This document shows positions 26,807-27,651 of a stretch of DNA of 43,760 nucleotides, in pieces. The notes beneath the pieces were generated by a model that saw only the letters and a list, made by a program, of their open reading frames with translations, did not search any database and was not told the origin of the DNA. The position numbers and the translations under genes were made by a program. The stretch comes from Bacteroides sp. (GTDB lineage Bacteria > Bacteroidota > Bacteroidia > Bacteroidales > GCA-2748055), in the NCBI GenBank assembly GCA_011056635.1, contig DSEO01000264.1, positions 1 through 43,760 on the forward strand, written 5' to 3'. Numbering within the stretch: the first letter of the stretch is position 1; each line of letters opens with the position of its first letter.

Positions 26807-27075
26807 CCGATTATCTTCAACTCAAAAGACAACGGCCGGGGTGAAAGGATGCATCCCGGGAGCAGAACATCAACAATACTTTTTACAGGTGCCCTCCCAA
26901 ATCCGGCGTAAAGGACCCATGTACGGATCCGGACACCCATGTCTCGTTTCCGTTCACAAAGAAACATTTTTAACAATTCCCAATTTGTACTATATATATC
27001 TTATTATCTGTTTATTACAAGGTTTGGCATGCGAATTGATCAAGTATTCACGAACAAGAAAAAAGCAGTGCAGTT

Positions 27076-27651
27076 ATGAAAGCAACGAAATTATTCACCG
27101 GCATACTTCTGGTCGCAATGGCCACCTCTGCAAACGGACAGGTTTTCGGATCGAAAGATCATACGCTTTTTGAAGGAATAAAGGACAGGCTGTTTCCGAA
27201 CCGGAACCAGAAAGTGGAATATCTCACCGTGGATTTTCAAAGCGAACGCGGCCGGATTGAAATCTGGATATCCGATCTGCACAGCTGGGCCATCGATCTT
27301 GTATCAGGAGATGTCTATGAGGCACCGGTTATCTCCAGGACCATCCTGGTGGATCATGCCGAAGTGGTTTTCGAATCGGATCTCAGGGTGGAGCAGTGGA
27401 TGGGAACGCCATTTGAGACAGGCGTATCGGAAGATGCATTAACCGTGGAAGGCTGGATGGCCGCTCCCTTCGAGGAAGGAGTGACTGATAATGAGGTAGT
27501 TGTGGAAGATTGGATGGCTATCCCCTTCCCGGATTGCCTGGAGGATCATGAAATAGCCATAGAAGACTGGATGATCACCCCCTTCGAAACGGGCCCGGCA
27601 GAGGAAGAAGTGTCTGTAGAAGATTGGATGACAGCTGCCTGGACAGAGTAA
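27076..27651 (+). CDS. Secreted/exported hypothetical protein with C-terminal 19-residue WM..PF tandem repeats
   Basis: Signal peptide MKATKLFTGILLVAMATSANGQ, then five phased units beginning VEQWM/VEGWM/VEDWM/IEDWM/VEDWM. In frame through to the stop. Confidence 0.85.
   Translation: MKATKLFTGILLVAMATSANGQVFGSKDHTLFEGIKDRLFPNRNQKVEYLTVDFQSERGRIEIWISDLHSWAIDLVSGDVYEAPVISRTILVDHAEVVFESDLRVEQWMGTPFETGVSEDALTVEGWMAAPFEEGVTDNEVVVEDWMAIPFPDCLEDHEIAIEDWMITPFETGPAEEEVSVEDWMTAAWTE
27388..27651 (+). repeat. Protein-level tandem repeat, exact 57-nt (19-aa) period, four full units plus one partial
   Basis: Units start at 27388, 27445, 27502, 27559 and 27616. Nucleotide sequence has diverged but V/I-E-x-W-M-x-x-P-F is kept. 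Confidence 0.95.

Follow-up and report, generated by a model that had tools for sequence, protein, structure and literature searches.

The locus raises the question of what a putatively exported, acidic protein built from tandem WM..PF units and belonging to no named family might do for its host. The gene lies in a 43,760-nt stretch of a Bacteroides sp. assembly (contig DSEO01000264.1, hereafter the window) and its features are collected in Table 1. The protein comprises a putative signal peptide, about 80 residues, four full units of 19 residues each and a C-terminal unit of 11, with the unit tryptophans at residues 108, 127, 146, 165 and 184. An initial annotation, made from the window alone, had described five tandem units; their starts (27388, 27445, 27502, 27559 and 27616) and their period of exactly 57 nt were reproduced. 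An additional, degenerate copy, RIEIWISDLHSW, was found N-terminal to the five units. Five E-x-W-M motifs were observed, whereas none of 20,000 shuffled versions of the mature sequence had more than two; the repeats are thus not due to chance. The repeat region is acidic and devoid of basic residues, with 24 D/E and 0 K/R between residues 105 and 191, and the protein does terminate on a repeat, in the form of a variant (WMTAAW without PF) that is present in many homologs.

Table 1. Positions of the repeat gene, its candidate promoter and the putative small RNA (nucleotide positions refer to the window unless a locus is given).
Feature	Position	Strand	Basis
Repeat-protein gene, 191 aa	27076..27651	+	ORF list, translation, homologs
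Signal peptide (putative), likely cleavage between ...SANG and Q	27076..27138	+	sequence, homologs, PMC10653852
Degenerate N-terminal unit RIEIWISDLHSW, W64	27253..27288	+	homologs with full E-x-W-M here, e.g. RIESWMTDLHSW
Repeat unit 1, VEQWMGTPFETGVSEDALT	27388..27444	+	
Repeat unit 2, VEGWMAAPFEEGVTDNEVV	27445..27501	+	
Repeat unit 3, VEDWMAIPFPDCLEDHEIA	27502..27558	+	
Repeat unit 4, IEDWMITPFETGPAEEEVS	27559..27615	+	
C-terminal unit VEDWMTAAWTE, distinct form, common at the C-terminus of homologs	27616..27648	+	
Candidate sigma-54 (RpoN) -24/-12 type promoter TTTGGCATGCGAATTG	27023..27038	+	only TTTGGCAY-N5-DTG match in the window
Putative small RNA, ~75 nt	L161 on G000:C37 of the own genome; sigma-54-type site at 261-276	minus	
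Putative small RNA, ~75 nt, other loci	L176, L177, L178, L201, L206, L209, L214, L226		
Putative small RNA, ~75 nt, other loci	L233, L248, L250, L256, L259, L261, L280		

Divergence of the codons had first been read as a sign of selection on the protein rather than of recent slippage. Nucleotide identity between units is 56-65%, and comparison of the four full units gave pS 0.69 and pN 0.33, crude values given the 57 nt per unit. Computed separately, and equally crudely, pN between units was 0.10 in the core columns versus 0.49 in the other columns, so that the core columns look to be under purifying selection. The far lower pN of the core relative to the linkers and the retention of E-x-W-M in at least eight families both argue for selection acting on the protein. 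Recent slippage or strain-specific low complexity was rejected on account of the low unit identity together with conservation across many genera.

With the whole protein as query, 23 of 61 related genomes gave homologs, and these 23 all belong to the window's own family; a profile search recovered them in 23 of the 28 genomes of that family. When an even sample of the order was searched, the profile matched 17 of 247 genomes, 15 of which were accepted; the matches in G105 and G122 were discarded as they align only to the half of the profile that contains the signal peptide. A two-unit profile matched 14 of 198 genomes of the order. The family thus extends over the window's own family and at least seven other families of Bacteroidales. 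The search across Bacteroidota suggested by the initial annotation brought nothing beyond that one order: the single match among 396 genomes evenly sampled from the phylum was the window's own genome. All the named carriers of homologs are uncultured MAGs. Over 47 genes, the unit consensus is roughly E-x(5)-[LIV/x]-E-x-W-M-T-x-P-F, in which W and M were fixed by the search motif and the preceding E reaches 99%. Units are variable in number and mostly spaced by 16-25 residues, with peaks at 18-19, a period of exactly 19 being a feature of close relatives rather than typical of the family. In most homologs the last motif lies within about 10 residues of the C-terminus, and the C-terminal unit is usually retained, some homologs having longer tails or lacking the terminal form. 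Several genomes carry tandem or scattered paralogs of the gene. Homologs retain the repeats, so these are not strain-specific low-complexity sequence, and no characterised family was recovered: the Pfam, NCBIfam, PHROGs and PDB sequence searches returned no credible match, in line with the first impression that the protein had no family to be named. Sub-threshold Pfam matches of distant family members were judged to be chance. Searches of phage, plasmid and viral contigs with the repeat protein gave no match, and a phage or plasmid origin was discarded; a literature search found no publication on a WM-repeat family.

The putative signal peptide has a glutamine at its likely cleavage site, and many homologs show FG or YG followed by Q at the same place. 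This fits the Q-rule of Bacteroidetes, a Gln at the signal-peptide cleavage site (PMC10653852), and supports the secretion proposed at the outset. AlphaFold, run with an alignment of 20 sequences, gave a model of pLDDT 56.7 and pTM 0.20 with single helical turns at some WM motifs. Such low confidence would agree with short linear motifs strung along a disordered chain, but it may also stem from the shallow alignment. Variable unit number and spacing combined with a near-invariant E-x-W-M are what would be expected of linear motifs and not of a solenoid. The protein is polyanionic, and we infer that it is exported and probably disordered; it presents five copies and one degenerate copy of [VIL]-E-x-W-M-x-x-P-F, with a C-terminal variant. 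A conserved C-terminus is also found in Type IX secretion substrates, likewise exported Bacteroidota proteins, but the conserved terminal unit of the repeat protein spans only about 11 residues and forms no domain, and no Type IX C-terminal sorting domain was matched in Pfam or NCBIfam up to E 10.

In the window's genus the repeat gene usually follows rsmI and is flanked by a DUF2807/head-GIN-like gene, whose identity was read by eye, and by dnaB. A locus from a different family (L115) also has it after rsmI, and paralogs located elsewhere stand beside unrelated genes. We consider the gene order from rsmI to dnaB, with the DUF2807-like gene and the repeat gene in between, as vertical synteny, and a partner encoded by a neighbour was discarded. 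Both neighbours in the window are on the minus strand; the gene is therefore probably a monocistronic unit, and the context yields no partner. RiPP and other peptide precursors have a modification or processing enzyme encoded alongside; in contrast, no conserved processing, modification or other enzyme neighbour of the repeat gene was found over 40 loci. No polysaccharide gene cluster was seen near the gene either. A radical SAM-like gene and a small lipoprotein gene stand beside two paralogs (L088, L109); the pair is missing at the syntenic locus L107 and is thus probably unrelated to the repeat gene.

The strongest functional clue is a sigma-54-type site just upstream of the gene, which was absent from the initial annotation. 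TTTGGCATGCGAATTG ends 37 nt before the start codon, outside the interval first described, and the full pattern TTTGGCAY-N5-[A/T/G]TG has one match in the window versus 0.11 expected. The upstream DNA of the 47 homologs shares the element TTTGGCAC-N5-[A/T/G]TG, in most cases at a distance of 33-62 nt from the start codon. This site precedes 37 of the 47 family genes with the strict pattern, 39 with a looser one and about 40 altogether. Among 452 further genes at these loci, the strict pattern precedes 2, both of them htpG (Hsp90); as these counts take in related genomes, p-values drawn from them overstate independence. It recurs in five families (f1, f14, f31, f38 and f82), is imperfect in f56 and is absent in members of f22 and f55. 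Sigma-54 promoters consist of a -24 box, TGGCA(C), and a -12 box, TTGC, at fixed spacing. The -24 box is present upstream of the window gene; in the -12 box, spacing and G are kept and the C is mostly replaced by A or T (TTGA in the window). RpoN is encoded in the same genome (PF04552 at G000:C52, E 6.7e-54), and it was found in 233 of the 247 genomes of the order, so nearly universal that its presence is useless as a discriminating correlate.

Over the 28 genomes of the family, the promoter pattern occurs at 100 sites, compared to 14 for a reversed control. The same motif precedes groES in 13 genomes and is also found before genes for Lon, a Bax-inhibitor-1-like protein (BaxI-1), a MacB/FtsX permease, an ABC ATPase, an HlyD-like adaptor, a sensor kinase, a TlpA-like protein and small secreted proteins (the HlyD, TlpA and OB labels used here were read by eye, the others being Pfam matches or plain sequence). 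According to a published survey, sigma-54 targets in Bacteroidota include GroES, GrpE, Hsp90, Lon and FtsX/COG0577 (PMC12316311). Because of this independent agreement we assign the site to RpoN, and its conservation before most family genes places the repeat gene, probably, in the Bacteroidota sigma-54 stress regulon. The departure of the -12 box from TTGC in most members would also fit another type of promoter or operator that only resembles a -24 box, which would leave the gene outside the regulon. This is rather unlikely, since the same motif precedes groES, htpG and lon, known sigma-54 targets (PMC12316311), and the full TTGC occurs at some sites of a co-regulated basic protein described below. 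The proposed membership in the sigma-54 regulon rests on a common promoter motif and on the presence of groES, htpG, lon and MacB-type genes behind it in the same genomes; the repeat protein differs from these in being exported and in having no known enzymatic or chaperone domain, and the part of the survey consulted makes no mention of such exported repeat proteins (PMC12316311). Two repeat genes of f22 (L077, L114) have no sigma-54-type site and share another upstream element, GATGTAACAT..CGAT..CGTCTTATA, which suggests a different control in this family.

On this basis we propose, with a confidence that stays somewhat short of even, that the protein is a stress-induced, extracytoplasmic, multivalent acidic binding scaffold. 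Its own sigma-54-dependent promoter would drive the gene as part of a regulon comprising chaperones, Lon, the Bax-inhibitor-like membrane protein, MacB/FtsX transporters and secreted and lipoprotein components of the envelope. Upon stress, the protein would be produced and exported to the periplasm or the cell surface, where the Trp/Met/aromatic motifs would serve as stickers, individually weak but repeated, with the acidic linkers as spacers between them, avidity being set by the number of units. The repeats, the constraint on their core, the extent of the family, the promoter association and the content of the regulon come out of the computation itself; sigma-54 control in the cell and scaffold action are what we infer, and the multivalent docking or adaptor role put forward earlier is of the same kind. 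Like sticker-and-spacer disordered proteins built of tandem short linear motifs, the protein has an aromatic motif in several copies, acidic linkers that vary, a changing number of units and no confident fold; its own disorder and binding are putative. An unnamed secreted family restricted to one order would thereby gain a regulatory context and a testable role, within what would be the envelope arm of a sigma-54 stress regulon that, in Bacteroidota, is little known beyond chaperones and transporters.

A basic secreted protein (L160 and L290 in the own genome; L188, L292-L299) lies behind a promoter of the same type and is unmatched in Pfam. It combines an N-terminal part rich in Arg, Lys, Gln and His with a conserved OB-like C-terminal domain, and a -24/-12 type site precedes its gene in 8 of the 8 loci with readable upstream DNA, three of them judged by eye. 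The C-terminal domain was strongly matched in 16 of the 247 genomes of the order, and 9 of the 16 also carry the repeat gene, which occurs in 15 (p 6e-9; counted by family, 4 are shared, p 9e-4; either value ignores relatedness in part). Six or seven repeat-bearing genomes of the order, depending on the count, lack the basic protein and several have it without repeats, so neither protein requires the other. Given the opposite charge, the shared promoter type and the co-occurrence, this strongly basic co-regulated protein is our best guess for a partner. A Tyr-rich lipoprotein of about 490 residues, also without Pfam match, carries the motif before its gene in 22 family genomes (L162 in the own genome; L180, L185, L190, L202 and others); its middle is extremely rich in Tyr and Trp and its end in Ser, Arg and Pro.

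Among the alternatives, the protein might be a periplasmic holdase, an extracytoplasmic counterpart of the chaperones of the same regulon, whose acidic chain would, during proteotoxic stress, use its Trp/Met/Phe stickers to hold on to exposed hydrophobic or basic segments of envelope proteins that are unfolding, and so keep these proteins soluble. An acidic, Trp/Met-rich and probably disordered chain and a promoter type common to groES, htpG and lon would suit this role; we nevertheless find it unlikely, if worth keeping in mind, because a holdase would not need so exact a motif, and the invariant E-x-W-M suggests a specific target. Somewhat less probable is a role in the matrix: a low-complexity protein, secreted under sigma-54 control, would help to build a surface layer, matrix or floc, and co-regulation with the Tyr-rich lipoprotein and the basic protein could be invoked for it. 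PEP-CTERM/exosortase substrates carry a C-terminal PEP motif, a transmembrane helix and a basic tail; the repeat protein ends in VEDWMTAAWTE, with neither PEP motif, transmembrane or hydrophobic stretch nor Arg cluster. It does share with RpoN-dependent PEP-CTERM proteins export and (putative) sigma-54 control, and such a gene is reported to be needed for floc formation in Aquincola (PMC9850573). The missing sorting signal and the absence of a polysaccharide gene cluster nearby count against the matrix role. With the same low probability, the acidic WM-repeat protein, the Arg/Lys/His-rich OB-like protein and the Tyr/Arg-rich lipoprotein could be a charge-complementary secreted set under sigma-54, forming a stress-induced protective sticker-and-spacer condensate; if so, these Bacteroidales would assemble a protective layer outside the inner membrane. 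A cationic-peptide sponge, a secreted polyanion capturing cationic antimicrobial peptides ahead of the membrane alongside MacB-type transporters, is more doubtful still: the repeat region has no K/R, MacB/FtsX permease, ABC ATPase and HlyD-like genes share the promoter and FtsX/COG0577 is a sigma-54 target in Bacteroidia (PMC12316311), but charge alone does not require an invariant Trp-Met motif, and the sediment habitats of the MAGs give no sign of peptide exposure. It is very improbable that the terminal unit is a signal read by a PDZ-type periplasmic protease or quality-control factor, with internal units modulating it: the unit is conserved at the very end and often finishes in an aromatic or hydrophobic residue, but the window protein finishes in ...AAWTE rather than in a hydrophobic residue, and some homologs have longer tails or miss the terminal form. 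A precursor whose units are individually excised and released as signal or product peptides is hardly credible: tandem conserved cores with variable linkers and copy number would fit it, but the repeats have no K/R, a cleavage site, dibasic or otherwise, is not conserved, and the 40 loci have no conserved adjacent processing or modification gene.

Beyond the scaffold that we favour, the promoter motif offers a simple way to list more secreted members and putative small RNAs of uncultured Bacteroidales. In 16 family genomes no ORF lies behind the site, which instead leads into a conserved segment some 75 nt long, GACAGTTCATCCA..CATAT..CCCTGA..GGGCCAGGTCCGTCTC..AGGCGGACTTTTATTTTTT, whose end resembles a Rho-independent terminator; this putative sigma-54-driven small RNA has no Rfam match. 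Pairing of its CAUCCA with the repeated TGGATG codons was considered and dropped, as in most genomes it did not exceed what control genes gave. A further candidate for a sigma-54-driven small RNA has a site followed by a shared GGTTTAAGTGGTTAGTAAAA stretch in L186 and L242, with a similar one in L220, and then a hairpin resembling a terminator.
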